Source of the DNA: Streptomyces nigrescens
GTDB taxonomy: Bacteria; Actinomycetota; Actinomycetes; Streptomycetales; Streptomycetaceae
Reading direction: 5' to 3'
NCBI GenBank assembly: GCA_024349765.1
Contig: AP026073.1
Location: 1,736,001-1,800,000, forward strand
Length of the DNA: 64,000 nucleotides
The translations under genes were made by a program, and so were the position numbers. The notes beneath the pieces were generated by a model, which saw only the letters and a list, made by a program, of their open reading frames with translations, searched no databases and was not told the DNA's origin. This document shows, in pieces, positions 10,461 to 43,780 of this stretch; position 1 is the first letter of the stretch; each line of letters opens with the position of its first letter.

Positions 10461-10483
10461 ACCGTACGGCCGACCACTGACAA
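10461..10483 (-). promoter_or_regulatory. PafBC / RecA-NDp-type DNA-damage promoter for the WGR gene
   Basis: On the reverse strand this reads TTGTCAGTG, 8 nt, TACGGT, an exact match to the mycobacterial RecA-independent damage promoter TTGTCRGTG-N8-TANNNT. Unlike the other copies in this window it is followed by a leader of about 48 nt with a normal Shine-Dalgarno. Confidence 0.85.
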
Positions 10484-10548
10484 CGGGCCGTGGAGCGCGG
10501 CTCGGGGCCGCTGAACGCCCTGCTCAGGGCGGCGGTTAGCGTAAGGGC

Positions 10549-11019
10549 GTGACCTCTTCCTTCACCGCATCAGACCCCTCCGGCGCGGCCGACGCGCTGC
10601 CCGGCAGCCAGGGGCCCACCGCAACCGTGGAAGCCCGGCCGGGCTCCGTCGGCACCGTCAGGATGACCTACGCGCCCGACCCGGACGGCGACCCGGACCC
10701 GGGCGAGATCGTCTGGACCTGGGTGCCCTACGAGGAGAACGACGGCCGGGGCAAGGACCGGCCGGTGCTGGTCGTCGCCCGGGAGACCGGCGGCACGCTG
10801 CTGGCGGTCCAGCTGTCCAGCAAACGGCACAGCAACGACCGGGAGTGGGTGGCCATAGGCGCCGGCCCCTGGGACCGCGCGGGCCGCGACTCCTGGGTGG
10901 CGCTCGACCGGGTCCTGCGGGTGCACCCGGAGGGCATGCGGCGCGAGGCGTGCGCCCTGGACCGGGGCCGCTTCAACCTCGTCGCCAACCGGCTGCGGGA
11001 GTTCCACGGCTGGCGCTGA
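10549..11019 (+). CDS. MazF/PemK-family toxin-like protein without adjacent antitoxin
   Basis: A 156-residue protein. The first 45 residues are a variable extension. The PemK/MazF-like fold starts around PGEIVWTWVPYEENDGRGKDRP and contains RPVLVVARE, VQLSSKR and DSWVALDRVLRVHPEGMRRE. MazF proteins are sequence-specific endoribonucleases. This streptomycete subgroup usually has no linked antitoxin, and none is seen here, so it may not be a true toxin. GTG 10549 follows AAGGG. The promoter region is shared with the divergent WGR gene, 136 bp away. Confidence 0.8.
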   Translation: MTSSFTASDPSGAADALPGSQGPTATVEARPGSVGTVRMTYAPDPDGDPDPGEIVWTWVPYEENDGRGKDRPVLVVARETGGTLLAVQLSSKRHSNDREWVAIGAGPWDRAGRDSWVALDRVLRVHPEGMRREACALDRGRFNLVANRLREFHGWR

Positions 11020-11041
11020 ACAGCCGCGGGCCCGGGCGGCG

Positions 11042-11584
11042 TCAGGCGTCCGCCAGCGCCAGGAGCTTGGTGACGGTGTTCCAGTTGCGGGCGGTGGCCG
11101 TCACCCCGAGCGGGGTGCGGCTCACCAGCGCGGCGAGCTTGGAGCGGCCGATGCCGTCCGGGCACCACAGGTACAGTTCGCGTCCGACCAGCCGGAACCG
11201 GTCGGGCGCGAACGCCGCCTGGTCGATCGCGTCCAGCCGCGAGGTGTCGGCCGGCACCTCCGACAGGAACGTGAGGTGCAGGCTCTTGGGTTCCGCCGCG
11301 GCCTGCGGAAACGGGTTCGCGGCGACCGCGGCGGCCAGCTCGTCACGGGTCCGCACGACCACCGGCACCGTGAGGCCGAGCTCGGCGGCGATCCGGTCCT
11401 CGATCCGCCGGGCCGTCTCGCCGGGCGGGGTGCCCGGATCGGCGAAGACGAGGTTGCCGGTCTGCAGCACCACGGTGACGTCCTTCAGCCCCAGTGCCTC
11501 CGCCAGCTCCCGCTGCCGGGCCTTGGGGAAGGAGTTGTGGCCTCCGACGTTGATACCGCGGAGCAGGGCGATCTGACGGGACAT
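11042..11584 (-). CDS. DUF1697 domain-containing protein
   Basis: A 180-residue protein that matches the DUF1697 family over its full length: an N-terminal IALLRGINVGGHNSFPKA, then LQTGNLVFAD and ELAAAVAANPFPQA, and a C-terminal YLWCPDGIGRSKLAALVSRTPLGVTATARNWNTVTKL. The family is widespread and has no established biochemical function. It lies 78 bp downstream of the alkyl-cysteine methyltransferase gene on the same strand and could be co-transcribed with it. Confidence 0.9.
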   Translation of the reverse strand: MSRQIALLRGINVGGHNSFPKARQRELAEALGLKDVTVVLQTGNLVFADPGTPPGETARRIEDRIAAELGLTVPVVVRTRDELAAAVAANPFPQAAAEPKSLHLTFLSEVPADTSRLDAIDQAAFAPDRFRLVGRELYLWCPDGIGRSKLAALVSRTPLGVTATARNWNTVTKLLALADA

Positions 11585-11662
11585 GGCACTGCCCTTCGGG
11601 GAGCCGGCCTCGATGAGGACGGACGACGGCCGGAACCGGGAGCCGGAACCGGAGGGACGGGA

Positions 11663-12262
11663 TCAGAAGAGCGGCGCGGGCAGCACGCCTTCGAGTGCGA
11701 GCAGCTGCCGCTTGGTCTCCAGGCCGCCGCCGAAGCCGCCGATCCCGCCGTCACTGGCGACGACACGATGGCAGGGCACGACGACCGGCAGCGGATTGGA
11801 CCCCATCGCGGCACCCACCGCGCGGGCGGCACCCGGCTCCCCGACCCGGTCGGCGAGGTCCTGATAGCCGACCACGTCGCCGTAGCGGACGCCGGAGGCC
11901 AGGGTCTGCAGCACCCGGGCGTGGAAACCGGACGACAGCGACCAGTCCAGGGGGACGGTGAAGGTCCGCAGCTCCCCGGCGAAATAGGCGGTGAGCTCGG
12001 CCGCGGCCGTCGCCAGCGGGGGTGTCTCCGGAAGCGGCGGCCCGCCGAAGAACTGCTCCAGCCGGGTCAGCGCGCGGCGGCCCGTCCGCTCGTCCGCGTG
12101 GAAGACGACCTGCACCAGACCGTCCCGCGTCGCGGCGAGCAGCAGCGGACCGATGGGGGTCGCAAGGCGGGTCCACGCCCAGTCGCGCCGGGCGGCGGAC
12201 CCGGCCTTCGGCGGCGCGTCCGCCCGGGCCGCCGGCCCCGGAACCTGCTCGGAATTCGTCAC
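11663..12262 (-). CDS. ogt: Methylated-DNA--[protein]-cysteine S-methyltransferase
   Basis: A 199-residue suicide repair protein that transfers O6-alkyl groups from guanine to its own cysteine. The active-site motif PCHRV is present with Cys164, and the surrounding RAVGAAMGSNPLPVVVPCHRVVASDGGIGGF is typical of the family. The N-terminal domain (residues 28-105) has the usual ribonuclease-H-like sequence. GTG 12262 was chosen because the -10 box of a PafBC-type promoter ends 6 nt before it, which makes a leaderless transcript likely. The upstream in-frame extension to 12331 would overlap the promoter. The ada/ogt naming is by family only. Confidence 0.92.
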   Translation of the reverse strand: MTNSEQVPGPAARADAPPKAGSAARRDWAWTRLATPIGPLLLAATRDGLVQVVFHADERTGRRALTRLEQFFGGPPLPETPPLATAAAELTAYFAGELRTFTVPLDWSLSSGFHARVLQTLASGVRYGDVVGYQDLADRVGEPGAARAVGAAMGSNPLPVVVPCHRVVASDGGIGGFGGGLETKRQLLALEGVLPAPLF

Positions 12263-12268
12263 CTGATC

Positions 12269-12291
12269 AGGGTAGGACGCCCCACTGACAA
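12269..12291 (-). promoter_or_regulatory. PafBC / RecA-NDp-type promoter for ogt, leaderless geometry
   Basis: The reverse strand reads TTGTCAGTG, 8 nt, TACCCT. The GTG of ogt begins 6 nt after the -10 box, about where transcription should start. Repair of alkylated DNA fits control by a DNA-damage activator. Confidence 0.85.
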
Positions 12292-12350
12292 CGCGGCGGG
12301 GAACGGCCCCGCGGCGGCCGCCGCGGGCCACCCCTGCAGGTCGGCGGCGC

Positions 12351-13241
12351 TCAGCCGGAGTGGTCGCGGCCCTCCAAGGCGTCCCGCACCACGTCCGGCT
12401 TGTTCGTGATGATGCCGTCGACGCCCAGACCGGCGACCTTCACCGCGGTGGCCGCGTCGTCGACGGTCCAGGTGTACAGGTCCAGCGGCCGCCGGTGCGG
12501 CCCCCGCAGCCCGTGCACGGCGGCGACGTACTCCGGGGTGACCACCGTGTGGACCGGATTGATCTGGTCGCAGTACTTCGCGTACTTCGGCAGGTCCGCC
12601 ACCGACGGGTTCCCGAGGAAGCCGGTCCTGACGTCCGGGCGGACGGTGTGCACGGTCTTGATGGCGTCGGCGTTGAAGCTCTGGATGATCAGCCGGTGCC
12701 GGACGTGCTCCCTGTCCAGCCAGCCGACCCGGCGCAGTTCCCTGAGCGTCTGCAGCTCGATGCCCGGATAGAGCTCCGGGGACTTCAGCTCCATCAGCAG
12801 GCTCTGGTCGTTCTCCTCCACCTCGTCCATGTAGTCCTCGAGGGTCGGCACCCGCTCGCCCTCGAACTTCGGTGCGAACCAGCTGCCCGCGTCCAGCTTC
12901 TCGATCTCCTTGAGGGTGAAGTCCGAGACGTTCCAGGGGGAGCGGTCGGGGAAGACCGTCTTGACGTTGGTGGTCCGTGCGAGCGAGTTGTCGTGGAGGA
13001 TGACCAGCTCACCGTCCTTGGTGCGCTGGACGTCGTTCTCGACCCATTCGAAGCCGAGCCGGGCGGCCTCGTCGATGGAGGCGAGGGTGTTCTCGGGGGC
13101 GTACGACGAGGCGCCGCGGTGGGCGACCGTCACCGGGGTGTTCCGGTGCGGTGCGGCCTGGGCGGCGGCCGGGGAGAGGACGAGCGCGGACAGACCCATG
13201 AGCGCACCGGCGACGACGGTGGCAACGGGGCGAATACGCAT
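12351..13241 (-). CDS. Secreted glycerophosphodiester phosphodiesterase
   Basis: A 296-residue enzyme with an N-terminal signal peptide (basic MRIRP, hydrophobic core, cleavage probably after AQA near residue 29). The GDPD TIM-barrel follows. VAHRGASSYAPENT carries the catalytic His-Arg and metal ligand Glu; ENDVQRTKDGELVILHD carries the Glu-x-Asp pair and the second catalytic His; further strands are SLLMELKSPELYPG and LIIQSFNADAI. It should hydrolyse glycerophosphodiesters to glycerol-3-phosphate and alcohols outside the cell, for phosphate or carbon supply. A clear ribosome site (GAGGAG) precedes the ATG. I saw no convincing PhoP box in its upstream region. Confidence 0.92.
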   Translation of the reverse strand: MRIRPVATVVAGALMGLSALVLSPAAAQAAPHRNTPVTVAHRGASSYAPENTLASIDEAARLGFEWVENDVQRTKDGELVILHDNSLARTTNVKTVFPDRSPWNVSDFTLKEIEKLDAGSWFAPKFEGERVPTLEDYMDEVEENDQSLLMELKSPELYPGIELQTLRELRRVGWLDREHVRHRLIIQSFNADAIKTVHTVRPDVRTGFLGNPSVADLPKYAKYCDQINPVHTVVTPEYVAAVHGLRGPHRRPLDLYTWTVDDAATAVKVAGLGVDGIITNKPDVVRDALEGRDHSG

Positions 13242-13754
13242 ACGGACTCCTCGTGACGTCGTGGAGGTGAGCTGACGAGAACGGACAGGAACCGGAGGGA
13301 CGGAAGAGGCTCGCAGCCGGGCCGTGACGGGAGGCGGTCGTGTGGTGGCCGGGCGCTGAACGAGACATGGCCGGTGTGCCGTGTGGAGCGTCGCGCAATT
13401 GCAGGATGCCCGGATCTGTCATGCAACAGACGTACGCTTCCGCCGCCGTCCAACTTGCCGGAGCCGGGGCGTCCGCGCATCTTGGCCGATGATGCGTCAC
13501 CCGTCGCGCTTCTGACCGGTTTTGGTCATACGGGCAGAAAAGCTGGACTCGGGGACCGCCTGGCGCGGGGGCCCGGTCGATCATGAAGCCGGCGCCGCGG
13601 GGCGCCGGCGGACGGTGATCAGCGGGGCGCCCCGCGACGGCGGCCCCGCGGCATCCGGCCGACGCCGCCGCGCCGCCTCCCGCGCCCGCCGGACAGTGCC
13701 GCCCCGCCGCTGAGGCCGCCCCGACATCGCAGGTCGGAGCAATTGCCACGTCGA
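13242..13754. other. Divergent intergenic region, about 510 bp
   Basis: This spans the upstream regions of the glycerophosphodiesterase (reverse) and uvrB (forward). A GC-rich hairpin with 9-bp arms (GCCGGCGCC / GGCGCCGGC, 4-nt loop) lies at 13588-13609. The central part around 13480-13560 is less GC-rich. I find no coding sequence with convincing codon use. Confidence 0.5.
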
Positions 13755-13777
13755 TTGTCAGTGGCGGGTCGTACGGT
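13755..13777 (+). promoter_or_regulatory. PafBC / RecA-NDp-type promoter for uvrB, leaderless geometry
   Basis: TTGTCAGTG, 8 nt, TACGGT, then 7 nt to the ATG of uvrB. It is an exact match to the RecA-independent damage promoter. No LexA-type GAAC-N4-GTTC box was seen nearby. Confidence 0.88.
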
Positions 13778-13784
13778 GGATCCC

Positions 13785-15917
13785 ATGCGGCCCGTATCAA
13801 AGATCGAACGCACGGTGGCACCCTTCGAGGTCGTCAGCCCGTACCAGCCCAGTGGTGACCAGCCGGCGGCCATCGCCGAGCTGGAGCAGCGCATCCGCGG
13901 GGGTGAAAAGGACGTCGTCCTGCTGGGCGCGACCGGTACCGGCAAGTCGGCGACCACCGCGTGGATGATCGAGAAGCTGCAGCGCCCGACCCTCGTCATG
14001 GCGCCCAACAAGACCCTCGCGGCCCAGCTCGCCAACGAGTTCCGCGAGCTGCTGCCGAACAACGCCGTCGAGTACTTCGTCTCCTACTACGACTACTACC
14101 AGCCCGAGGCGTACGTCCCGCAGTCCGATACGTACATCGAGAAGGACTCCTCCATCAACGAGGAGGTCGAACGGCTGCGCCACTCCGCGACGAACTCCCT
14201 GCTCACCCGGCGTGACGTCGTCGTGGTCGCCTCGGTCTCCTGTATCTACGGCCTGGGCACGCCGCAGGAGTACGTCGACCGGATGGTGCCGCTCAAGGTC
14301 GGCGACGAGATCGACCGCGACCAGCTGCTGCGGCGCTTCGTCGACATCCAGTACAGCCGCAACGACCTGGCCTTCACCCGCGGCACGTTCCGGGTCCGCG
14401 GCGACACCATCGAGATCTTCCCGGTCTACGAGGAGCTGGCCGTCCGGATCGAGATGTTCGGCGACGAGATCGAGGCGCTCTCCACCCTCCACCCGCTCAC
14501 CGGCGAGGTGATCAGCGACGACCAGCAGCTGTACATCTTCCCGGCCAGCCACTACATCGCCGGCCCCGAGCGCATGGAGCGCGCCATCGCCGGGATCGAG
14601 GCCGAGCTGGCCGACCGGCTCACCACCCTGGAGAAGCAGGGCAAGCTGCTGGAGGCCCAGCGGCTGCGGATGCGCACGACGTACGACATCGAGATGATGC
14701 GCCAGATCGGCTCCTGCTCCGGCATCGAGAACTACTCCATGCACATGGACGGCCGCGAGCCCGGCTCGGCGCCCAACACCCTCATCGACTACTTCCCGGA
14801 GGACTTCCTCCTGGTCATCGACGAGTCGCACGTCACCGTCCCGCAGATCGGCGCGATGTACGAGGGTGACGCCTCCCGCAAGCGCACCCTCGTCGACCAC
14901 GGCTTCCGGCTGCCGTCCGCCCTGGACAACCGGCCGCTGAAGTGGGAGGAGTTCCTGGACCGCATCGGGCAGACCGTCTACCTGTCCGCGACCCCCGGGC
15001 CGTACGAGCTGGCCCGGGGCGACGGCTTCGTGGAGCAGATCATCCGCCCGACCGGCCTGGTCGACCCGGAGGTCGTGGTCAAGCCCACCGACGGGCAGAT
15101 CGACGACCTGGTGCACGAGATCCGCACCCGCACCGAGAAGGACGAACGCGTCCTGGTCACCACACTCACCAAGAAGATGGCCGAGGACCTCACCGACTAC
15201 TTCCTGGAACTCGGCATCCAGGTCCGCTATCTGCACAGCGACGTCGACACCCTGCGGCGCGTCGAGCTGCTGCGCGAGCTGCGCTCCGGCGAGTTCGACG
15301 TCCTGGTCGGCATCAACCTGCTGCGTGAGGGCCTCGACCTGCCCGAGGTGTCCCTGGTGGCCATCCTGGACGCCGACAAGGAGGGCTTCCTGCGCTCCGG
15401 GACCTCGCTGATCCAGACCATCGGCCGCGCCGCGCGCAACGTCTCCGGCCAGGTGCACATGTACGCCGACAAGGTCACCCCGGCGATGGAGAAGGCCATC
15501 GAGGAGACCAACCGCCGCCGGGAGAAGCAGCTGGCGTACAACAAGGAGCACGGCATCGACCCGCAGCCGCTCCGCAAGAAGATCGGCGACATCGTCGCCA
15601 CCATCGCCCGGGAGGAGATCGACACCCGGGAGCTGCTGGGCAGCGGCTACCGCAAGCCGGGCGACGCCAAGGACACCAAGGGCAAGGCGCCGGTCCCGGC
15701 ACTGGGCGCCAAGCCGGCGAAGGGCAAGGGCGCCAAGGAGGGCGCACCGCTGACGGACCGTCCCGCGGCCGAACTCGCCGAGCTCATCGAGGAGATGACG
15801 GAGCGGATGCGGGCCGCCGCGGCCGAGTTGCAGTTCGAGATCGCCGCCCGGCTGCGCGACGAGGTCGGCGAGCTCAAGAAGGAGCTGCGGCAGATGAGGG
15901 AGGCCGGCGTGAAGTAG
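13785..15917 (+). CDS. uvrB: Excinuclease ABC subunit B
   Basis: A 710-residue UvrB, the damage-verifying helicase-like subunit of nucleotide excision repair. It shows Walker [15 protein letters not shown] (residues about 45-58), the beta-hairpin region [12 protein letters not shown], Walker B-type [20 protein letters not shown], helicase motif VI within TIGRAARN, and the C-terminal UVR domain ([20 protein letters not shown]). A Lys/Gly/Ala-rich linker lies before the UVR domain. ATG 13785 is preferred over an in-frame ATG at 13743 because it gives the usual [16 protein letters not shown] start and sits 7 nt after the -10 box. uvrA and uvrC lie in the same window but are transcribed separately. 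Confidence 0.97.
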
Positions 15918-15941
15918 TGGGAGCCGGGCGGGTGGCGCACT

Positions 15942-15972
15942 CACCAGGACGGGTGGCGCGCCCGCCCTGGTG
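15942..15972 (+). terminator. Hairpin terminator after uvrB
   Basis: Arms of 12 bp with one mismatch (CACCAGGACGGG / CCCGCCCTGGTG) around a 7-nt loop, 25 bp after the uvrB stop. There is no U-tract, as is common in this high-GC group. Confidence 0.6.
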
Positions 15973-16083
15973 TTGCAGAAACGCCACAAACGCGGGCCCG
16001 CGACGCCCCGGGCCCGCCGTCGTGCGTAGGGTCGAAGCGGCCGCCGGAAACGTGGGCGGGACGGTACAGAGAGGGGACGGCGC

Positions 16084-16662
16084 GTGTCGGTCAATTTGTC
16101 CAAGGGACAGGGCATCAGCCTGCAGAAGTCCGACGGGGGGACGCTGACCGCGGTCCGGATGGGGCTCGGTTGGCGCTCGGCGCCGCGCCGCGGACTGTTC
16201 GGCCGGCGGACCAAGGAGATCGATCTCGACGCCTCGGCGGTGCTGTTCGCCGGCAAGCAGCCGATCGACGTCGTCTTCTTCCAGCACCTGGTCAGCGACG
16301 ACGGCGCGGTCCGGCACACCGGTGACAACCTGGTCGGCGGCGCCGGCCAGGGCGGCGACGACGAGGCGATCCTGGTCGACCTGGCGCGGCTGCCGGTCCA
16401 CATCGACCAGATCGTCTTCACCGTCAACTCCTTCACCGGGCAGACCTTCACCGAGGTGGAGGACGCCTTCTGCCGGCTGGTCGACGAGACCACCGGCCAG
16501 GAGCTGGCCCGCTACACCCTCACGGGCGGCGGCAATTACACCGCACAGGTCATGGCCAAGGTGCACCGCGTCGGCAACGGCTGGCAGATGACCGCCATCG
16601 GCGAGCCCTCCGTCGGCCGCACCTTCCAGGACCTGGTCCCGGCGATCGTCCCGCACCTGTAA
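16084..16662 (+). CDS. TerD-family protein
   Basis: A 192-residue TerD-type protein. It starts VSVNLSKGQGISLQKSDGG, has the acidic DLDASAVLF segment, FFQHLVSDDGAVRHTGDNL (calcium-binding type acidic loop), GDDEAILVDLARLPVHIDQIVFTVN and the C-terminal YTAQVMAKVHRVGNGWQMTAIGE. TerD proteins are calcium-binding beta-sandwich proteins linked to tellurite resistance and to poorly understood stress responses; streptomycetes carry many copies. A second TerD-type gene follows 104 bp downstream and terC comes next, which makes a small ter-like group. Confidence 0.92.
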   Translation: MSVNLSKGQGISLQKSDGGTLTAVRMGLGWRSAPRRGLFGRRTKEIDLDASAVLFAGKQPIDVVFFQHLVSDDGAVRHTGDNLVGGAGQGGDDEAILVDLARLPVHIDQIVFTVNSFTGQTFTEVEDAFCRLVDETTGQELARYTLTGGGNYTAQVMAKVHRVGNGWQMTAIGEPSVGRTFQDLVPAIVPHL

Positions 16663-16766
16663 GCAGCCGCAGCACCACGGCAGCGCGCACCCGGGCCGCG
16701 CCGCCGTGCGCCCCGGGCAGCCGCCCGGGGCGGGCCCGGGACGAGTGACAACCAGGGGGAAGAACG

Positions 16767-18728: not shown

Positions 18729-18741
18729 CCAGCACTTTTAC

Positions 18742-18775
18742 CCATCCCTTTACTAAGTCTTGGCCATCCTTTACT
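18742..18775 (+). repeat. Direct repeat in the terC promoter region
   Basis: CCATCCCTTTACT (18742-18754) and CCATCCTTTACT (18764-18775) are near-identical direct repeats in an unusually A/T-rich patch just upstream of the terC leader RNA. They may be two binding sites for a regulator or may carry -10-like elements (TACTCT at 18772-18777). Confidence 0.5.
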
Positions 18776-18785
18776 CTTCTTGGTG

Positions 18786-21409: not shown

Positions 21410-21540
21410 GCTCCGAAGCTAGCGCCGACCGGGCGAGTTCGGGAGTCGGCGGGCACCGATCGGGGCGTACGCGGGGCGGGACGGGCGGCGCGCGGCGGCC
21501 GGACGGGCCACCGGGCGCCGCCCTCCCGGGGCACGCGGTG

Positions 21541-23157
21541 TCAGCCCGTCGGATCGGCGGGCGAGCCGAACCACCGCCGGAGCGCGGCCGCCAACCCGTC
21601 CGGCCCGTCCGGCCCGTCCGGCCCGTTCGGCGCGCTCGCCGTGCCGCCCGCGTCGACCGTGGATGCCGGAGCCCCGGGGACGTCCGCGGCCCAGGCGGTG
21701 CAACCGTCCGGCCGCACCAGGAGGCCGGCCAGCTCGGGCCGCTGCGGGCAGCCGGTGGTCAGCAGCCGCACCCGGCCGCCATATCCGGCGGCGCACTTGC
21801 GCAGCTCCGCGTCGTCGGCGAGGTCGAGCAACAGCGCCTGTCCGTCCCGCAGATGGTCCCCGAGCCGGCTGCCGTCGGAGAGTTCCAGGTCGGGCGCGCT
21901 GCGGCCGGTCAGCGGATGGTCGCCGGGCAGGTCGTAGCGCTGCCAGACACCGGAGATCTTCTTGGCGAAGAAGGTGGTGGCGGTGACCGTGCCCGTCAGT
22001 TCGGCGATGATCCGGCGCAGCGCCCCCGCATGCGACTCGGGCCGCATCAGCGCCACCTGGGCACGGGTCCAGTCCAGCACCCAGGCGCCTATCGGGTGCC
22101 GCTCGGCCGTGTAGGTGTCGAGCAGCCCCTCGGGCGCCCGGCCACGCACCGTCGCGGCCAGCTTCCAACCGAGGTTCATCGCGTCGCCGATGCCCAGGTT
22201 CAGCCCCTGCCCGCCGAACGGCGAGTGGACGTGCGCCGCGTCACCGGCGAGCAGCACCCGCCCCGCCCGGTAGTCGGGCACCTGACGGGCGTTGTCCGTG
22301 AACCGGGTCGCCGAGATCACCTTGTGGACCCGGACCTCGTCCACCCCGGAGACGCGGCGCAGCGACGCCTCCAACTCCTGTGCGGTGACCGGAGCTTCAC
22401 GATCCGCGGGCGGCCCGTCGAATTCGACGGTGAGGAACCGGCCGGGCACCGGGCCGTGCGCGTACGTCCCGTGCTCCGTCCAGTTCCAGCCGGTCCCCAG
22501 CGCCTCGGTGCCGGTCATCTCCACGAGGGCCTGGCGGCCGGTGATCCCCGGGGCCGTACCGGGGAACGGGAATCCGGCGAGCCGGCGGACCGTGCTGCGG
22601 CCACCGTCGCACCCCACCAGCCAGCCGGTGCGCAGCGTGCCCTGCGAGGTGTGCACCCGCACCCCGTCCTCATCGGCGTCGAAGCCGGTCAGCGTCACCC
22701 CGCGGCGCACCTCGACGCCCAGTTCGGCGGCGCGCGCGGCGAGCAGCCGTTCCAGGGGCTCCTGGGGGACCAGCCCGACGTCGGCGGCCGGGCCGGCGGC
22801 CTCGAAGTCCGGATCGGCCTCGTCCAGCAGATCGCCGCGCAGCATGATGCCCGCGAAGTGCCCGGCGAACTTGGGCGGTTGCCGCACCACGGAGGCACCG
22901 GCGGCCTGCCGCTGGCTCAGGAACGAGCTGAACCTTCCGAGGACGGTGCGCTGCACCTCGACCAGCTCCGGGAGCAGCCCGCGCCGGTAGAAGGCCTCCG
23001 CACTCGGGGTGTTGATCGCCCCCGCCTTGATCGTCGTGTCCACCTCGGTCAGCCGCTCCAGGACGACGACCGGCACCTCGGCCAGTGCCAGTTCGCAGGC
23101 GAGCATCAGCCCCACCGGGCCGCCCCCTGCCACGACTACGTCTGCGTCATAGGTCAT
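21541..23157 (-). CDS. FAD-dependent aromatic-type monooxygenase
   Basis: A 538-residue group A flavoprotein hydroxylase. It has the GxGxxG motif VVAGGGPVGLMLACELA at residues 6-22, the DG motif VGCDGGRSTVRRLAGF and the GD motif VLLAGDAAHVHSPFGGQGLN, GIGDAMNLGWKLA. A thioredoxin-like C-terminal region follows, containing a short GPDGPDGPDG repeat coded by tandem 9-bp units at about 21598-21627. The family includes rifampicin monooxygenases and polyketide hydroxylases. The start at 23157 (MTYDADVVV) lies 7 nt after TACACT. It is divergent from a TetR gene with a 71-bp shared promoter region, so the TetR protein probably represses it. Confidence 0.88.
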   Translation of the reverse strand: MTYDADVVVAGGGPVGLMLACELALAEVPVVVLERLTEVDTTIKAGAINTPSAEAFYRRGLLPELVEVQRTVLGRFSSFLSQRQAAGASVVRQPPKFAGHFAGIMLRGDLLDEADPDFEAAGPAADVGLVPQEPLERLLAARAAELGVEVRRGVTLTGFDADEDGVRVHTSQGTLRTGWLVGCDGGRSTVRRLAGFPFPGTAPGITGRQALVEMTGTEALGTGWNWTEHGTYAHGPVPGRFLTVEFDGPPADREAPVTAQELEASLRRVSGVDEVRVHKVISATRFTDNARQVPDYRAGRVLLAGDAAHVHSPFGGQGLNLGIGDAMNLGWKLAATVRGRAPEGLLDTYTAERHPIGAWVLDWTRAQVALMRPESHAGALRRIIAELTGTVTATTFFAKKISGVWQRYDLPGDHPLTGRSAPDLELSDGSRLGDHLRDGQALLLDLADDAELRKCAAGYGGRVRLLTTGCPQRPELAGLLVRPDGCTAWAADVPGAPASTVDAGGTASAPNGPDGPDGPDGLAAALRRWFGSPADPTG

Positions 23158-23173
23158 GAGCCGAAGTGTAGCC

Positions 23174-23198
23174 ACTAAAAACTTTTTGCGACTAAAAA
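23174..23198. promoter_or_regulatory. A/T-rich repeats, candidate operator of the TetR/monooxygenase pair
   Basis: ACTAAAAA occurs twice (23174-23181 and 23191-23198), 17 bp apart, and encloses an AAAAACTTTTT palindrome at 23177-23187. The block covers the expected -35 region of the reverse-strand monooxygenase promoter and abuts the PafBC-type box of the TetR gene. Confidence 0.6.
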
Positions 23199-23221
23199 TT
23201 GTCGGTGGGGGCGCCTAGGAT
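23199..23221 (+). promoter_or_regulatory. PafBC / RecA-NDp-type promoter for the TetR gene, leaderless geometry
   Basis: TTGTCGGTG, 8 nt, TAGGAT, then 7 nt to ATG 23229. It is an exact match to the consensus, with the same start geometry as uvrB and uvrC. Confidence 0.82.
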
Positions 23222-23228
23222 TTCGGGC

Positions 23229-24002
23229 ATGGTGGATGTGCAGCGGCGTGCGGACGCGCGGACCGGTGAGGACGCGAGGGACGCGGCGGGAGAAGGCGGG
23301 CGGGCCGACGCGGCCGGCGGCCGGGGCCGAGCGGTCCGCGGGCGGCAGGCGGAGATCGGCTTCGAGGCGGAGGACGGGCGGCTGACGCTGCGCGAGCGCA
23401 AGAAGCTCCGCACCCGCCAGCGGATCTCCGGCGAGGCCACCCTGCTCTTCATCGAGCGCGGCTTCGACAACGTCACCGTCGCCGAGGTGGCCCGCGCCGC
23501 CGAGGTCTCCACGATGACCGTCTTCAACTACTTCCCGCGCAAGGAGGACCTCTTCCTCGACCGCATCCCCGAGGGGCAGGAGCTGATCGGCCGCGCCGTA
23601 CGGGAGCGTGGCCCGGACGAGACGCCGCTGGCCGCGTTGCGCCGGCTCGTCCTGGACCTGCTGGCCGAGCGGCATCCGCTGTGCGGGGTGGGGGAGGGGT
23701 TCGAGCATTTCTGGCGTACGGTGCTGGACTCCCCGGCGCTGCGGGCCCGGGCCCGCGAGGCGGTCGAGGAGCTGGAGGCCGGCCTCGCCGGACTGCTCGC
23801 CGAGGCCGCGGGCGGCGACGCCGGGCGGCCGGACCACCCCGCCCGGCTGGCCGCGGCGCTGATCGTCGCCGGGATCCGTGCCGCGTACGCCGAGGCCGTG
23901 GGCCGTCAGCTCGCGGGTGAGCCGGTCGACGAGGTGGCCGCCGGGCAGGCGGGGGTGCTGCGGCGCACGTTCGAGGCGCTGGAACGGGCGCTGCCGGCTT
24001 GA
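23229..24002 (+). CDS. TetR-family transcriptional regulator
   Basis: A 257-residue regulator with a 55-residue disordered, Gly/Arg-rich N-terminus. The TetR DNA-binding domain is at about residues 57-110 (LRTRQRISGEATLLFIERG, then VTVAEVARAAEVSTMTVFNYFPRKEDL). The C-terminal ligand domain is helical and Ala/Leu-rich. It is divergent from the monooxygenase gene and presumably represses that gene and itself through the A/T-rich repeats between them. ATG 23229 is supported by a PafBC-type promoter with its -10 box 7 nt upstream. The DNA-damage promoter on a drug-type repressor is unexpected. Confidence 0.88.
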   Translation: MVDVQRRADARTGEDARDAAGEGGRADAAGGRGRAVRGRQAEIGFEAEDGRLTLRERKKLRTRQRISGEATLLFIERGFDNVTVAEVARAAEVSTMTVFNYFPRKEDLFLDRIPEGQELIGRAVRERGPDETPLAALRRLVLDLLAERHPLCGVGEGFEHFWRTVLDSPALRARAREAVEELEAGLAGLLAEAAGGDAGRPDHPARLAAALIVAGIRAAYAEAVGRQLAGEPVDEVAAGQAGVLRRTFEALERALPA

Positions 24003-24286
24003 CGGGTCGGACGGGCCGTGCCGCGGGCGTTTCCGCAGCGTACGGGCGTGCGGCGGGCCGGGAAGGATGTGCGGCCGCCACACGTTTGGGTGAAGAGGGC
24101 TTGCGGGCCCCGTAAATCGAATGCGCGTGCTATAGGCTCGTGTGTGGCATCCCAAAGACAGTGCCGCTGCGGGCCCCATACCCTGGGGCGTGGGCCCCGC
24201 TCCGTTCCGCCGCCTCTGCTCGCTCACCGAGCGGCGGACGCAGAGCCCGCGGCTCCCGCCCCTCTCCAAGAAAGGTGCCGACCGGC

Positions 24287-27316
<3,030 letters not shown>

Positions 27317-34339: not shown

Positions 34340-34362
34340 TTGTCGGTGGCGGTCAGTAGGGT
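34340..34362 (+). promoter_or_regulatory. PafBC / RecA-NDp-type promoter for uvrC, leaderless geometry
   Basis: TTGTCGGTG, 8 nt, TAGGGT, then 7 nt to ATG 34370. It is an exact match to the consensus and nearly identical in layout to the uvrB promoter. It would also drive rapZ, yvcK and whiA, which overlap uvrC. Confidence 0.88.
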
Positions 34363-34369
34363 GGGGTTC

Positions 34370-36418
34370 ATGGCAGACCCCAGCAGCTACCGACCCAAGC
34401 CGGGACAGATCCCCGACTCGCCGGGGGTCTACAAATTCCGCGACGAGCACGGCCGGGTCATCTACGTCGGCAAGGCCAAGAGCCTGCGCCAACGCCTGGC
34501 CAACTACTTCCAGGACCTGGCCGGCCTCCACCCGCGCACCCGCACGATGGTCACCACCGCCGCCTCGGTGGAATGGACCGTCGTCTCCACCGAGGTCGAG
34601 GCCCTCCAGCTCGAATACAGCTGGATCAAGGAGTTCGACCCCCGCTTCAACGTCAAATACCGCGACGACAAGAGCTATCCGTACCTCGCCGTCACCCTCA
34701 ACGAGGACTTCCCCCGCGCCCAGGTCATGCGCGGCGCCAAGAAGAAGGGCGTGCGCTACTTCGGCCCGTACGCCCACGCCTGGGCCATCCGCGAGACCGT
34801 CGACCTCATGCTGCGGGTCTTCCCCGTCCGCACCTGCTCCGCCGGCGTCTTCAAGCGCTCCGCCCAGATCGGCCGCCCCTGCCTCCTCGGCTACATCGGC
34901 AAGTGCTCCGCCCCCTGCGTCGGCCGGATCTCCGAAGCGGACCACCGCGAACTCGCCGAGGAATTCTGCGACTTCATGGCCGGCCGCACCGGCGCCTACA
35001 TCCGCCGCCTGGAGCGCAGCATGCAGGACGCCGCCGAGGAGATGGAGTACGAACGCGCCGCCCGGCTCCGCGACGACATAGGCGCCCTCAAGCGGGCCAT
35101 GGAGAAGAGCGCCGTCGTCCTCGCCGACGCCACCGACGCCGACCTGATCGCCGTCGCCGAGGACGAACTCGAAGCCGCCGTCCAGATCTTCCACGTCCGC
35201 GGCGGCCGGGTCCGCGGCCAGCGCGGCTGGGTCACCGACAAGGTCGAGGCGGTCACCACCGGCGACCTCGTCGAACACGCCCTCCAGCAGCTCTACGGCG
35301 ACGAACACGGCGACGCCGTACCCAAGGAAGTACTGGTCCCTGCCCTGCCCGACCCCGTCGAACCGGTCGCCCAGTGGCTCACCCAGCGCCGCGGCTCCCA
35401 GGTCTCCCTGCGCATCCCGCAGCGCGGCGACAAGAAGGACCTGATGTCCACGGTCGGCCGCAACGCCCAGCAGGCCCTCGCCCTGCACAAGACCAAGCGC
35501 GCCTCCGACCTGACCACCCGCTCCCGCGCCCTGGAGGAGATCGCCGAGGCCCTCGGCCTGGACTCGGTCCCGCTGCGCATCGAGTGCTTCGACATCTCCC
35601 ACCTCCAGGGCGAGGACGTGGTCGCCTCCATGGTGGTCTTCGAGGACGGCCTGGCCCGGAAGAGCGAATACCGCCGCTTCCAGATCAAGGGATTCGCCGG
35701 ACAGGACGACGTCCGGTCCATGCACGAAGTCATCGGCCGCCGCTTCCGGCGCTACCTCCAGGAGAAGCAGAAGTCCGGGGAGTGGACCGAGGAGCCCGGA
35801 GCGCCGGACGGCGAAACCCCCGAGGACACCGCCCCCGCCCCCGACGGCCCGCTCGACGACGACGGCCGCCCCAAGCGGTTCGCCTACCCTCCCCAGCTCG
35901 TCGTCGTCGACGGCGGCGCCCCCCAGGTCGCGGCCGCCCGCCGGGCCATGGACGAGCTCGGCATCGACGACGTCGCCGTCTGCGGCCTGGCCAAGCGCCT
36001 GGAGGAGGTCTGGCTGCCCGGCGAGGACGACCCGGTCGTCCTGCCCCGCAGCAGCGAGGGCCTCTACCTCCTCCAGCGCGTCCGCGACGAGGCACACCGC
36101 TTCGCGATCACCTACCAGCGCAGCAAGCGCACCAAGCGGCTGAAGGCCTCACCGCTCGACGCCGTGCCCGGCCTCGGCGACACCCGCCGCCAGGCACTGC
36201 TCAAGCACTTCGGCTCGCTGAAGAAGCTGCGGGCCGCGACGATCGACGAGATCTGCGCCGTCCCCGGGGTCGGCCGCAAGACCGCGGAAACGGTCGCCGC
36301 CGCACTGGCCGGAGCGGCACCGACCGCTCCCGCGGTGAACACCGCCACAGGAGAGATCATTGAGGATGACGGGGCCCCACCGGCCGCGTTGTCGGCAGAA
36401 CGGGGGCAGGAACCATGA
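34370..36418 (+). CDS. uvrC: Excinuclease ABC subunit C
   Basis: A 682-residue UvrC, the dual-incision nuclease of nucleotide excision repair. The GIY-YIG-type nuclease is at residues 10-95 ([21 protein letters not shown]). The UVR domain is near residue 220 ([20 protein letters not shown]). The RNase H-like UvrC domain has [21 protein letters not shown] and [14 protein letters not shown], and a C-terminal helix-hairpin-helix pair includes [18 protein letters not shown] and [19 protein letters not shown] 34370 fits the leaderless promoter. The stop overlaps the rapZ ATG (ATGA), starting a four-gene overlapping operon. Confidence 0.97.
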
Positions 36419-37368: not shown

Positions 37369-38416
37369 GCGGCCGCACACCACGGCTGCGCCGGGTCCGC
37401 CGATTCGTCCCCAGCGGCCGTACGACGAAGGGCGCCACCCCCAAGGTGGTGGCGCTCGGCGGAGGCATGGGCCTGTCCGCCTCCCTCGCCGCGCTCCGCC
37501 GCATCACCGGCGACCTCACGGCCGTCGTCACGGTCGCCGACGACGGCGGCTCCAGCGGCCGGCTCCGCGACGAGCTCGGCGTGCTGCCGCCCGGCGACCT
37601 GCGCAAGGCACTGGCCGCGCTGTGCGGCGACGACGACTGGGGCCAGACCTGGGCCCGGGTCATCCAGCACCGCTTCCAGAGCGAGGGCGAACTGCACGAC
37701 CACGCCGTCGGCAACCTGCTCATCGTCGCCCTGTGGGAGCAGCTCGGCGACCACGTCCAGGCCCTCGACCTGGTCGGCAAGCTGCTCGGCGCACAGGGCC
37801 GGGTACTGCCCATGTCGGCCGTCCCCCTGGAGCTCCAGGCCCAGGTCAGGGGCCACGACCCGGACCACCCCGACGACGTCTCCACGGTCCGCGGCCAGGC
37901 CACCGTCGCCCTCACCCGCGGCGAGGTGCAGTCCGTCCACGTCGTCCCCGAGGACCCGCCGGCCGTCCCCGAGGCGGTCGCCGCGGTCCGTGACGCCGAC
38001 TGGGTGGTTCTCGGCCCCGGATCCTGGTTCTCCTCCGTGATCCCCCATCTGCTGGTGCCACAGCTGCGCGAGGCCCTGGAGGAGACCAAGGCACGCAAGG
38101 TGCTCTCCCTCAACCTCGCACCGCAGCCGGGCGAAACCGAAGGCTTCTCCCCGCAGCGTCATTTGGAGGTTTTGGCCCGACACGCCCCTAAACTCGCCTT
38201 CGACGTGGTGCTGGCCGACAGGGCCGCCGTGCCCGACATCGATGGCCTGACGGTTGCCGCCAAGCAGCTCGTCGGCAGCGAGGTCGAGCTGGCGGCGGTC
38301 GCGGCGCAAGGAGACGACGCCCGGCCGACCGCCGGGGGAGCCCCCGACCGGCACGACCCGGAGCTGCTGGCCGCCGCGTACGACCGTATTTTTCGGATGC
38401 ATGGAAGGATCGGCCC

Positions 38417-38426
<10 letters not shown>
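37365..38426 (+). CDS. yvcK: YvcK/CofD-like gluconeogenesis factor
   Basis: A 353-residue protein of the CofD/YvcK family. It has the N-terminal nucleotide-binding motif [64 protein letters not shown] and the conserved [42 protein letters not shown] follows. In Bacillus YvcK is needed for growth on gluconeogenic carbon and affects cell shape; in actinobacteria it is always found with rapZ and whiA. The GTG overlaps the rapZ stop by 4 bp and the gene overlaps whiA by 10 bp. Confidence 0.95.
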
Positions 38427-40634
<2,208 letters not shown>

Positions 40635-40670
40635 TATCTCTGCCTGATACCCCAGGCACCGAGGTGTGAA

Positions 40671-40716
40671 GGACGGGGCTCGTACGACGCGACGAAGCGT
40701 CGTACGAGCCCCGTCC
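40671..40716 (+). terminator. Perfect 20-bp hairpin between gap and pgk
   Basis: Arms of 20 bp with no mismatch (beginning GGACGGGGCTCG and ending CGAGCCCCGTCC) around the loop GACGAA. It sits between two genes of one pathway, so it may cause partial termination or act as an mRNA stability element that lets gap be expressed above pgk. Confidence 0.8.
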
Positions 40717-40747
40717 TGCGACCGAATCAAGCGACGGAGCACTTCCC

Positions 40748-41950
40748 ATGAAGACGATCGACGACCTTCAGGTAGCAGGACAGCGGGTCTTTGTCCGCGC
40801 CGACCTGAACGTACCGCTGGACGGCACCACCATCACCGACGACGGCCGCATCCGCGCCGTCGCCCCGACGATCGCCAAGCTCACCGAGCGCGGCGCCAAG
40901 GTGATCGTCGCCTCCCACCTGGGCCGCCCCAAGGGCGCCCCGGACCCGGCCTTCTCCCTGGCCCCCGCCGCCCAGCGGCTCGGTGAAATCCTCGGCCAGG
41001 ACGTGGCGTTCGCGACCGACACCGTCGGCGCATCCGCCGCCGCCGTCACCGCGGGCCTCGCCGACGGCCAGGTGGCCGTGCTGGAGAACCTCCGCTTCAA
41101 CCCCGGCGAGACCAGCAAGGACGACGCCGAGCGCGGCGCCTTCGCCGACCAGCTCGCCGCCCTCGCCGACCTCTACGTCGGCGACGGCTTCGGCGCCGTG
41201 CACCGCAAGCACGCCTCCGTCTACGACCTTCCCAAGCGCCTGCCGCACGCCGCCGGCGACCTCATCGCCACCGAGGTCGGCGTCCTGAAGAAGCTCACCG
41301 AGGACGTCAAGCGCCCCTACGTCGTCGTGCTCGGCGGCGCCAAGGTCTCCGACAAGCTCGCCGTCATCGACGAACTCCTCGGCAAGGCCGACCGCCTCCT
41401 GATCGGCGGCGGCATGGCCTACACCTTCCTCAAGGCCAAGGGCTACGAGGTCGGCATCTCCCTCCTCCAGGAGGACCAGATCCCGGCCGTCACGGAATAC
41501 ATGGAACGCGCCGAGAAGAACGGCGTCGAGCTGGTCCTGCCCGTCGACGTCCTCGCCTCCACCGACTTCCCGGACCTGAAGACCAAGGCCCCCGCGGACT
41601 TCGACACCCTCGACGCCGACAAGATCCCCTCCGACAAGGAGGGCCTGGACATCGGCCCGAAGACCCGCGAGCTGTACGCTTCCAAGCTGGCCGACGCCGC
41701 GACCGTCTTCTGGAACGGTCCGCTCGGTGTCTTCGAGCACCCGGACTACGCCGGTGGCACCCGCGCCATCGCCCAGGCGCTCGTCGACAGCGATGCCTTC
41801 ACCGTGGTCGGCGGTGGCGACAGCGCCGCCGCGGTCCGCCTGCTGGGCTTCGACGAGAACGCATTCGGCCACATCTCGACCGGTGGCGGCGCCAGCCTCG
41901 AATACCTCGAAGGCAAGACGCTCCCCGGCCTCGCCGCTCTGGAGGACTGA
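40748..41950 (+). CDS. pgk: Phosphoglycerate kinase
   Basis: A 400-residue enzyme that makes ATP from 1,3-bisphosphoglycerate. Conserved parts are VFVRADLNVPL, SHLGRPKGAPD, FNPGETSKDD (a shorter form of the family segment), VVVLGGAKVSDKLAVIDEL, and the ATP-binding C-terminal FTVVGGGDSAAAVRLLG. Length and order are those of the family. It is separated from gap by 113 bp containing a strong hairpin and from tpiA by 6 bp. Confidence 0.97.
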   Translation: MKTIDDLQVAGQRVFVRADLNVPLDGTTITDDGRIRAVAPTIAKLTERGAKVIVASHLGRPKGAPDPAFSLAPAAQRLGEILGQDVAFATDTVGASAAAVTAGLADGQVAVLENLRFNPGETSKDDAERGAFADQLAALADLYVGDGFGAVHRKHASVYDLPKRLPHAAGDLIATEVGVLKKLTEDVKRPYVVVLGGAKVSDKLAVIDELLGKADRLLIGGGMAYTFLKAKGYEVGISLLQEDQIPAVTEYMERAEKNGVELVLPVDVLASTDFPDLKTKAPADFDTLDADKIPSDKEGLDIGPKTRELYASKLADAATVFWNGPLGVFEHPDYAGGTRAIAQALVDSDAFTVVGGGDSAAAVRLLGFDENAFGHISTGGGASLEYLEGKTLPGLAALED

Positions 41951-41956
41951 ACAACC

Positions 41957-42733
41957 GTGAGTGACCGCACCCCGCTGATGGCGGGCAACTGGAAGATGAA
42001 CCTCAACCACCTCGAGGCCATCGCCCACGTCCAGAAGCTCGCCTTCGCCCTCGCCGACAAGGACTTCGACGCCGTAGAGGTCGCCGTCCTGACGCCCTTC
42101 ACCGACCTCCGCTCGGTGCAGACCCTGGTCGACGGCGACAAGCTCAAGATCAAGTACGGCGCGCAGGACCTCTCCGCGCACGACTCCGGCGCGTACACCG
42201 GTGAGATCTCCGGCGCGATGCTCGCCAAGCTCAAGTGCGCCTACGTCGCCGTCGGCCACAGCGAGCGCCGCCAGTACCACGGCGAGAACGAAGAGATCTG
42301 CAACGCCAAGGTCAAGGCCGCCTTCCGGCACGGCCTGACCCCGATCCTCTGCGTCGGCGAGGGCCTGGACGTCCGCAAGGCCGGCAACCAGGTCGCGCAC
42401 ACCCTCGCCCAGGTCGACGGCGGCCTCGCGGACATCCCGGCCGAACAGGCCGAGACCATCGTGATCGCCTACGAACCGGTGTGGGCCATCGGCACCGGCG
42501 AGGTCGCCACCCCCGAGGACGCCCAGGAGGTCTGCGCGGCCATCCGCGGCCGCCTGGCCGAGCTCTACAGCCAGGAGCTGGCCGACAAGGTCCGCATCCA
42601 GTACGGCGGCTCGGTCAAGTCCGGCAACGTCGCGGCGATCATGGCCCAGCCGGACGTCGACGGCGCCCTCGTCGGCGGCGCGGCACTGGACGCCGACGAA
42701 TTCGTCAAGATCGTCCGCTTCCGCGACCAGTAG
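41957..42733 (+). CDS. tpiA: Triosephosphate isomerase
   Basis: A 258-residue TIM-barrel enzyme. The N-terminal [11 protein letters not shown] holds the catalytic Asn and Lys, [14 protein letters not shown] the catalytic His, [17 protein letters not shown] the catalytic Glu on loop 6, and [12 protein letters not shown] the phosphate-binding region. GTG 41957 lies 6 bp after pgk, so it is co-transcribed with it. Confidence 0.97.
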
Positions 42734-42786
42734 CAGCCGCGCAACACCAGCAGCTATGACGAGGACGAGCCCTCGTCGTACCCTGT

Positions 42787-42825
42787 CGGGGCCGGGACCG
42801 GTGCAGCAGCGCCGCCCCGGCCCCG
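42787..42825 (+). terminator. Hairpin between tpiA and secG
   Basis: Arms CGGGGCCGGG / CCCGGCCCCG around a 19-nt loop, about 54 bp after tpiA. A smaller GAGG/CCTC dyad precedes it. Confidence 0.55.
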
Positions 42826-42890
42826 CACCATATGTTCCACGTATCGTGATCCATACGTCCGTCCGTCAGTCCTAGAGAGTTGGTCCAGCC

Positions 42891-43127
42891 GTGGTCATCG
42901 GATTCTCGATCGCCCTCATCGTCTTCAGCCTGCTGCTGATGATGCTGGTGCTCATGCACAAGGGGAAGGGCGGCGGTCTGTCCGACATGTTCGGCGGCGG
43001 CATGCAGTCCTCGGTCGGCGGCTCCTCGGTCGCCGAACGCAACCTGGACCGCATCACCATCGTGATCGGTCTGCTCTGGTTCGCCTGCATTGTCGTCCTC
43101 GGCGTCCTGATGAAGCTCGGCAGCTGA
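42891..43127 (+). CDS. secG: Preprotein translocase subunit SecG
   Basis: A 78-residue membrane protein with two hydrophobic segments (residues 2-22 and 53-73) and the conserved loop LVLMHKGKGGGLSDMFGGG between them, then VAERNLDRITI. SecG supports SecYE in protein export. GTG start, as in other streptomycetes; the usual position after tpiA is kept. Confidence 0.95.
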   Translation: MVIGFSIALIVFSLLLMMLVLMHKGKGGGLSDMFGGGMQSSVGGSSVAERNLDRITIVIGLLWFACIVVLGVLMKLGS

Positions 43128-43188
43128 CATACCGTCGGGGGCGCGGCCTATCATGAGGGCGGCGTCCCGGGACGGTAACTCCGGTCAC

Positions 43189-43216
43189 TGGACGCGCGTT
43201 GGGCCTTACGTAGACT
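43189..43216 (+). promoter_or_regulatory. Candidate promoter of the rbpA-like gene
   Basis: TGGACG, 16 nt, TAGACT resembles a vegetative promoter, about 65 nt before the GTG of the rbpA-like gene. Confidence 0.4.
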
Positions 43217-43280
43217 GTGGCGTTCCGCAGCGCAGCTGATGTGAAGGCTTTGCAGCACCATTACGCAGGGAGTAACGACC

Positions 43281-43616
43281 GTGGCAAGTGGCAACGCGAT
43301 CCGAGGAAGTCGGGTCGGGGCGGGGCCGATGGGGGAGGCCGAGCGCGGCGAGTCCGCGCCGCGCATCCGCATCTCCTTCTGGTGCTCCAACGGGCACGAG
43401 ACGCAGCCCAGCTTCGCCGGCGATGCGCAGGTTCCGGACACCTGGGACTGCCCGCGCTGTGGTTTCCCGGCCGGCAAGGACCGGGACAGCCCGCCGGACC
43501 CGCCGCGCACCGAGCCCTACAAGACCCACCTCGCCTACGTCCGCGAGCGCCGCAGCGACGCCGACGGCGAGGCCATCCTCGCGGAGGCGCTCGCCAAGCT
43601 CCGCGGCGAGATCTGA
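43281..43616 (+). CDS. RbpA-family RNA polymerase-binding protein (RbpB-type paralogue)
   Basis: A 111-residue protein with the RbpA plan. An N-terminal GNAIRGSRVGAGP precedes a zinc-ribbon-like core with FWCSNGHETQ and DTWDCPRCGFPAG (Cys-Cys-Cys pattern), then PPRTEPYKTHLAYVRERRSDADGEAILAEALAKL, the sigma-interaction helix region. RbpA binds RNA polymerase and principal sigma factors and gives basal rifampicin tolerance. The S. coelicolor RbpA I know starts differently (MSERALRGTRL), so this is the shorter second paralogue, often named RbpB or simply RbpA in annotation. GTG 43281 follows GGGAG. Confidence 0.92.
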   Translation: MASGNAIRGSRVGAGPMGEAERGESAPRIRISFWCSNGHETQPSFAGDAQVPDTWDCPRCGFPAGKDRDSPPDPPRTEPYKTHLAYVRERRSDADGEAILAEALAKLRGEI

Positions 43617-43633
43617 CGGAACAGACACACGGC

Positions 43634-43671
43634 CGGCCCGGCCGGAAGGAACCCCCCTTCCGGCCGGGCCG
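43634..43671 (+). terminator. Hairpin terminator after the rbpA-like gene
   Basis: Perfect 16-bp arms (CGGCCCGGCCGGAAGG / CCTTCCGGCCGGGCCG) around a 6-nt loop, 17 bp after the stop. Confidence 0.85.
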
Positions 43672-43757
43672 ACCGCGTTCGCACGAGCCGCCGCACCCGC
43701 GCCCTCCACCGCGTCCGAGACAGCGGATGGGGCCGCTACCCCCATACCCCAAGCCCG

Positions 43758-43780
43758 TTGTCAGTGGTCGCCCGTATCGT
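43758..43780 (+). promoter_or_regulatory. PafBC / RecA-NDp-type promoter without an identified gene
   Basis: TTGTCAGTG, 8 nt, TATCGT, followed by 6 nt and ATG 43787. It matches the consensus exactly and has the same leaderless start geometry as uvrB, uvrC and ogt. What it transcribes is not clear (see the next entry). Confidence 0.8.

Follow-up and report, generated by a model that had tools for sequence, protein, structure and literature searches.

What brings six exact copies of one DNA-damage promoter pattern together within some 33 kb of a Streptomyces chromosome, and which genes do they serve? The locus that raises this question lies in Streptomyces nigrescens (contig AP026073.1 of GenBank assembly GCA_024349765.1, positions 1,736,001 to 1,800,000, forward strand), and the whole of this stretch of 64,000 nucleotides (nt) is called the window here. 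The pattern consists of TTGTCRGTG, a spacer of eight nucleotides and a TANNNT -10 element, and an earlier note, made from the DNA letters alone, had read its six occurrences as promoters of PafBC type, independent of RecA, that drive uvrB, uvrC and ogt and implicate a WGR-domain protein, a TetR-family regulator and an unidentified open reading frame (ORF) as further members of the damage response. We can say with good confidence that each of the six is a core promoter of the RecA-NDp class, for which a PafBC-type mechanism is likely and explains the whole best. As judged from the sequence, membership appears supported for uvrB, ogt and the WGR gene, less firmly so for uvrC and plausible for the TetR gene, while the sixth site is best described as an orphan promoter.

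Pattern and spacing are those of the class, with no mismatch, at all six sites:

10461..10483, minus strand: promoter of the WGR/beta-propeller gene, exact, start codon 48 nt past the -10 element
12269..12291, minus strand: promoter of ogt, exact, GTG 6 nt past the -10 element, predicted leaderless
13755..13777, plus strand: promoter of uvrB, exact, ATG 7 nt past the -10 element, predicted leaderless
23199..23221, plus strand: promoter of the TetR-family gene, exact, ATG 7 nt past the -10 element
34340..34362, plus strand: promoter of uvrC, exact, ATG 7 nt past the -10 element, predicted leaderless
43758..43780, plus strand: orphan promoter between an RbpA-family gene and pgi, exact

The six sites are thus as the earlier note described them, and its estimate of roughly 0.001 chance matches becomes 0.0011 when recomputed for independent bases at the window's G+C content of 72.07%, both strands included. 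Dinucleotide shuffles of the window contained no exact match in any of 100 trials, and a scan that allowed two mismatches added only three sites, each with two mismatches, where 1.0 was expected in all. A scan of the whole genome, which had been proposed as a check, found the exact pattern 43 times in 9.33 Mb, the window's six included, and the reversed pattern not once; on the strength of the shuffles and this reversed control, an origin of the six sites by chance was rejected. The assignment of the motif to the PafBC type held up likewise, the promoter pattern being that of the RecA-NDp/PafBC class and far above chance. The concentration claimed for the window is also real: with 43 sites in the genome 0.30 would be expected per 64 kb (Poisson P(>=6) = 7e-7), and when 43 points are placed at random the probability that six or more fall together somewhere within 64 kb is 0.0004, and within 33.3 kb 1e-5. 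Long stretches of the window align with Streptomyces celluloflavus at 70-92% DNA identity (mostly at least 80%), and five of the six sites recur there with order and orientation kept by position.

The promoter type is not new. For recA of Streptomyces rimosus, the RecA-NDp consensus TTGTCAGTGGC-N6-TAGggT of Ahel et al. (2002) is quoted in a passage of PMC2375139, and its 23-nt pattern and spacing are identical to those of the window sites, for which reason we discarded the idea of a new promoter class; the difference is that here the pattern stands before uvrB, uvrC, ogt, the WGR/propeller gene and the TetR gene, and that its conservation has been counted and its distance to the start codons determined. 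The consensus of Mycobacterium smegmatis PafBC closely resembles RecA-NDp, and recA, uvrA and uvrC are regulated by PafBC there, according to passages of PMC11804915 and PMC8223512; the resemblance is taken from this published description, and homologs of PafB and PafC occur in S. nigrescens as well. In Streptomyces coelicolor, the macrodomain gene SCO6735 carries this promoter and is induced 5-fold by ultraviolet (UV) light, and the promoter also precedes its homologues in several species (parts of PMC5087735 and PMC9411070). That work concerns a single gene, whereas the set described here is genome-wide. S. nigrescens itself has a macro-domain-like gene (L025) whose site shows leaderless spacing and whose matches are weak, below the family cut-offs. 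Finally, the SIGffRid study of S. coelicolor and Streptomyces avermitilis assigned related motifs to 67 S. coelicolor genes, with DNA repair as the leading group and uvrB among them (same passage of PMC2375139), though its motifs are looser than the exact 23-nt pattern. The statement that the motif is well described in mycobacteria is too narrow, since the promoter type was known in Streptomyces from S. rimosus recA in 2002, from the S. coelicolor scan by 2008 and from the UV-inducible SCO6735. What is better defined is the membership; in the parts of the literature examined we found no earlier account of the WGR/propeller gene and the exporter gene as conserved members, of the rule of leaderless spacing or of a genus-wide count of the exact motif.

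What, then, does the set of 43 sites control? The target of each site was taken to be the downstream frame with high third-position G+C, and 40 of the 43 were scanned with family models, the sites L019, L021 and L023 having no assigned ORF and being left out of that scan. DNA-repair, replication or nucleotide-pool genes follow 14 of the 43, a plain count with no all-gene background: recA, ruvC, uvrB, uvrC, ogt, xthA, a UDG-family glycosylase, an AlkZ-like glycosylase, RarA/MgsA, a UvrD-like helicase, dnaX, a RecD2-HHH protein, MazG and, as the second frame behind its site, an AlkB-like oxygenase. Given these 14, the motif appears to mark a damage-response set, yet one that extends beyond repair genes alone, since the other targets include the weak macro-domain-like protein, ABC transporters, a SWIM protein and DUF families. 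Among the targets with no obvious part in repair, those of L042 (DUF1877), L044 (SWIM), L048 (DUF2797), L050 (TIGR02996-like) and L051 (DUF6333) have their start codons 6-7 nt past the -10 element. Two sites, G000:C1:3276140 (minus strand) and 3277081 (plus strand), here L020 and L021, lie 0.9 kb apart and diverge; behind one come a short frame with leaderless spacing and then the AlkB-like gene, while the other has no assigned gene.

A candidate activator is encoded in the same genome. Adjacent pafB and pafC genes lie at C1:2170925-2172889, behind a gene that appears to be pafA. Compared with the chains of the M. smegmatis transcription complex 7p5x, their products match over nearly their full length (PafB 5e-54, PafC 7e-56); both carry WYL and WCX domains, PafC also HTH_PafC, and the helix-turn-helix (HTH) regions are present. 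Around the recognition helix of PafB, whose F/R residues are named in a passage of PMC6789036, S. nigrescens and M. smegmatis are nearly identical. Activation by PafBC has been reported in Mycobacterium, and from these homologs we infer that PafBC may control the promoters of this genome and that the window genes would be induced by damage. In mycobacteria, single-stranded DNA binds the WYL domains, PafB sits on the -26 motif and PafC on sigma domain 4 (described in part of PMC11804915). Carried over to S. nigrescens, DNA damage would expose single-stranded DNA, to be bound by the WYL domains of a PafB-PafC heterodimer; PafB would read the -26 element, here taken as TTGTCRGTG, PafC would dock the principal sigma factor, and RNA polymerase would start at TANNNT with no need of a -35 element. 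The promoters would thereby drive the three repair genes uvrB, uvrC and ogt together with the WGR/propeller gene, and probably also the TetR gene; at 43758 the promoter alone survives.

The exact pattern is a feature of the whole genus. Each of 61 Streptomyces genomes, our own included, holds 11-44 sites, 1518 in total against six matches of the reversed pattern, and in a sample of 246 genomes from the phylum it occurs in 8/8 members of the genus (10-43 each) and 9/13 other members of the class (1-12). All 17 genomes of that sample with at least three sites have a PafC match, and most PafC-bearing genomes have no site. Eight genomes with named records, chosen from loci already bearing a recA-type site (S. 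narbonensis, S. lateritius, S. bikiniensis, S. albidoflavus, S. globisporus, Streptomyces sp. SirexAA-E, S. lydicus and S. celluloflavus), hold 9-39 sites each, with one reversed-pattern match among all of them. The count in S. narbonensis, a species close to Streptomyces venezuelae, is 21.

The position of the start codon follows a rule. Counted from the last T of the -10 element, an ATG or GTG stands at an offset of 6 nt at 12 of the 43 sites and of 7 nt at 15, other offsets accounting for 0-4 sites each; the resulting 27 compare with 2.6 expected for two offsets (binomial P = 1e-22). Of these 27 codons 25 belong to long coding frames, the exceptions being a gene remnant at 43787 and the short frame that precedes the AlkB-like gene. 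From a -10 element of this type, RNA synthesis normally begins about 6-8 nt downstream. With the start codon falling at the expected transcription start, we predict leaderless mRNAs at most targets. The same spacing is found at recA: a scan for an SOS box followed by TTGTCRGTG within 60-90 nt returned at least 120 stretches (L220-L339), and among those listed all 120 carry the full 23-nt pattern and 118 have ATG or GTG at +7. In our own genome the start-like codon of the recA-type site lies upstream of a second in-frame ATG. An activator-dependent -10 element that makes transcription begin on the start codon itself would let damage-induced repair proteins be made by leaderless initiation, and we propose tentatively, at clearly less than even confidence, that the Streptomyces PafBC response is a leaderless-mRNA regulon with WGR/propeller and MFS (major facilitator superfamily) exporter members. 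In passages of PMC10936776, the word 'leaderless' appears only within a reference title.

The genes behind three of the sites are excision or direct repair genes, as had been claimed, and family models identify them:

11663..12262, minus strand: ogt, methylated-DNA--cysteine methyltransferase (Pfam PF01035 3.5e-29, PF02870 4.8e-10)
13785..15917, plus strand: uvrB (NCBIfam NF003673 1e-248, TIGR00631 3e-247; first 497 residues scanned)
34370..36418, plus strand: uvrC (NCBIfam NF001824 4.2e-256; first 497 residues scanned)

Conservation was scored in the upstream regions of orthologs in congeners, our own genome counted, against the pattern and against its reversed form, which always gave at least three mismatches. 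The uvrB site is kept with at most one mismatch at 28/30 loci (22 exact) and the ogt site at 27/30 (19 exact), while the uvrC site is kept at 12/30 (two exact), 30 loci being counted from matches in 31 genomes. At one uvrB locus (L113) both boxes are intact around a spacer of seven rather than eight nucleotides, and the exact pattern thus misses at least one likely site. Between the TetR gene and uvrC, at 24287-27316, lies a gene that we take to be uvrA from its N-terminus. In the uvr regions of seven relatives, not all of which reach uvrA, an exact site precedes this gene in three (L340-L342) and a one-mismatch site in one. Our own genome has an exact uvrC site, matched by one other among the 30 loci, while the uvrA site is absent. 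The cluster of sites reflects the gathering of repair genes (uvrB, uvrA, uvrC and ogt) at this locus.

Beyond the repair genes, one further member has a conserved promoter:

8982..10412, minus strand: WGR and PQQ/BamB-like beta-propeller protein, 476 amino acids (Pfam WGR 1.1e-17 at residues 5-75, PQQ_2 3.5e-7)

A full ortholog of this gene is present in 12 of 31 genomes, with weak partial matches in two more, and the site stands with at most one mismatch before 12/12 orthologs, our own among them (nine exact, three with one mismatch). The proposal that the WGR gene belongs to the damage response is thereby supported and extended. Sequence matches in the PDB are to 3hxj (residues 115-367), to the designed 'Cake' chains and to the uncharacterised 2ra8 (residues 17-75). 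A single-sequence fold was poor (mean predicted local distance difference test score, pLDDT, 44.9) and is used for no claim. The protein may be a scaffold that binds nicked or broken DNA.

The TetR site stands within a segment that one close relative lacks:

21541-23175, minus strand: flavin adenine dinucleotide (FAD) monooxygenase, divergent from the TetR gene (nearest to rifampin-monooxygenase models, below their cut-offs)
23171-23181 and 23188-23198: two ACTAAAAA repeats directly upstream of the TetR-gene promoter
23229..24002, plus strand: TetR-family regulator, 257 amino acids (Pfam TetR_N 8.9e-13)

The two ACTAAAAA repeats could be the regulator's own operator, and the gene is probably driven by its RecA-NDp-type promoter. 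Among the matches listed from 30 congeners, the best-scoring regulator is 46% identical and none exceeds 49%. S. celluloflavus lacks the TetR/FAD monooxygenase segment (about 21493-24041), a sign that these 2.5 kb beside uvrA were either gained or lost. The identical 23-mer of this site recurs in the congener G039 (L343 position 4602, minus strand), followed at 7 nt by the GTG that opens a frame which, from its N-terminus, we presume to be polA-like.

Behind the sixth site the picture is one of loss:

43281..43616, plus strand: RNA polymerase-binding protein of the RbpA family, next to the orphan site on its upstream side (Pfam RbpA 3.7e-42)
43787..44338, plus strand: remnant of an MFS transporter gene, an open frame judged not to be coding from its codon-position G+C, lack of a Pfam match and gene fragments

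The G+C content of the frame at 43787 is 0.73/0.73/0.77 over the three codon positions, unlike the coding frames of this genome, and a Pfam scan of it gave no match. Fragments in the window match MFS residues of about 14-60 and 199-232, the second containing a stop. At 13 of 30 pgi loci a site lies upstream of pgi (12 exact, one carrying a single mismatch), and behind it comes a transporter frame whose length, measured from the first start, is 392-474 codons; in L172, the one of the 13 ORFs properly scanned with Pfam, the family is MFS_1 (1.1e-28). In S. celluloflavus the site is present as well, with an open transporter frame of 419 amino acids that lies 56 nt away, counted from the site's start; a blastn comparison with it matches the window until about 43798 and from about 44256, with nothing over 43799-44255. 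Neither site nor transporter was seen at 11 pgi loci; L187 and L189 (apparent second pgi copies elsewhere) and L169 (near a contig edge) are included in the 30 and were counted as having no site. A site without an intact transporter also stands upstream of pgi in L181 (one mismatch) and L182 (exact), and in L181 both ends of the transporter gene are present and the middle is missing. A coding gene behind 43758 was rejected on the flat codon-position G+C, the missing Pfam match, the fragments with their stop and the blastn gap, and the 'unidentified ORF' named as a damage-response member is accordingly no such gene. Since site and intact transporter persist at the pgi loci of relatives and only a remnant is left here, the promoter at 43758 appears to have been orphaned when the transporter gene was lost, the ancestral member having presumably been an exporter.

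Several observations weigh against a simple assignment of these promoters to PafBC. Many of the 43 sites precede genes with no evident role in repair; our own uvrA has no exact site upstream, the best candidate having three mismatches with spacers of 6-10 allowed; and 17 of the 18 uvrC loci with more than one mismatch retain only TAGGGT, the upstream half having decayed. Outside the class, the pattern occurs in 42/225 genomes, at 1-3 sites each, against 21 with a control match, and PafC exceeds its family cut-off in 158/246 genomes of the phylum, far more widely than the exact motif. According to passages of PMC9380542, a paper of 2022, an initial search suggested that S. venezuelae does not conserve the PafBC motif of M. 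smegmatis, and a PafBC-type response had yet to be demonstrated in Streptomyces. The genus-wide counts and that in S. narbonensis (S. venezuelae itself was not scanned) are in tension with the former statement. A literature search over titles and the beginnings of abstracts, with most subscription journals outside it, brought up no recognisable study of PafBC function in Streptomyces. The promoters might be of RecA-NDp class and damage-inducible and yet answer to an activator other than PafBC, be it another WYL protein or an alternative sigma factor: the genome has eight WYL and eight PafC-HTH matches, so that a further WYL regulator is possible; of the 13 genomes that belong to the class but not to the genus, four lack an exact site despite a strong PafC match; and SIGffRid met the related motifs while seeking sigma-factor binding sites. 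Set against this, PafB and PafC are encoded side by side, match the solved M. smegmatis complex and keep the recognition-helix stretch, and every phylum-sample genome with three or more sites has PafC, although shared descent limits the weight of that count; we think another activator unlikely.

Control by LexA is a further alternative to PafBC, under which the genes would be governed mainly by the SOS system and the motif would be no more than a constitutive extended promoter. recA carries both an SOS half-box and the RecA-NDp motif, LexA binds uvrA in S. venezuelae (again from a passage of PMC9380542), and a TCGAAC half-site lies 49 nt past the start of the uvrB site. Half-sites of the SOS type occur near 7/43 sites, one of them being the recA box itself, and a box of the own-recA type is found among the 43 only at recA. 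Yet within 310 nt around the sites a consensus-like SOS box (at most two mismatches) occurs at only 4/43 and at none in the window, a weak test in that the strict scan misses the recA box, and SCO6735, with the same promoter, is UV-induced; SOS control was rejected as the main explanation of the six sites on this weak test, and we regard it as very improbable. One zero-mismatch match to the SOS consensus, at 12862-12877, falls inside a glycerophosphodiesterase-like coding frame and is probably due to chance. No more credible is the notion that the cluster forms a functional damage-response domain with its sites gathered for joint control. Six sites in 33 kb (P = 1e-5 under random placement) and the retention of five in S. 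celluloflavus would suit it, but individual genes gain and lose their sites (more than one mismatch is found at 18/30 uvrC loci, and three relatives have an exact uvrA site that is missing here), 37 of the 43 lie elsewhere in the genome, and neighbouring repair genes are explanation enough; a special domain was rejected because gene neighbourhood accounts for the cluster. A narrower doubt is harder to set aside, namely that two of the six, the one before the TetR gene and the orphan at 43758, have no function now and are relics or passengers rather than regulon members. No coding gene follows the orphan site, L181 and L182 keep theirs with no intact transporter, and the TetR segment is missing from S. 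celluloflavus; against this, the TetR ATG lies exactly 7 nt past the -10 element, like those of uvrB and uvrC, and exact copies almost never arise by chance. We put this at a little short of an even chance.

With RecA-NDp promoters under probable PafBC control as the preferred account, the window adds a conserved and uncharacterised WGR/propeller protein to the promoter set. The spacing rule, a start codon 6-7 nt past the -10 element, can be used to check the annotation of start codons, that of recA included, and the question of a PafBC-type response in S. venezuelae can now be tested directly with one deletion and a list of promoters. If the more tentative reading of a leaderless regulon is true, the damage regulon of these bacteria would also hold a WGR/propeller protein and an MFS exporter whose promoter outlives the decayed gene.

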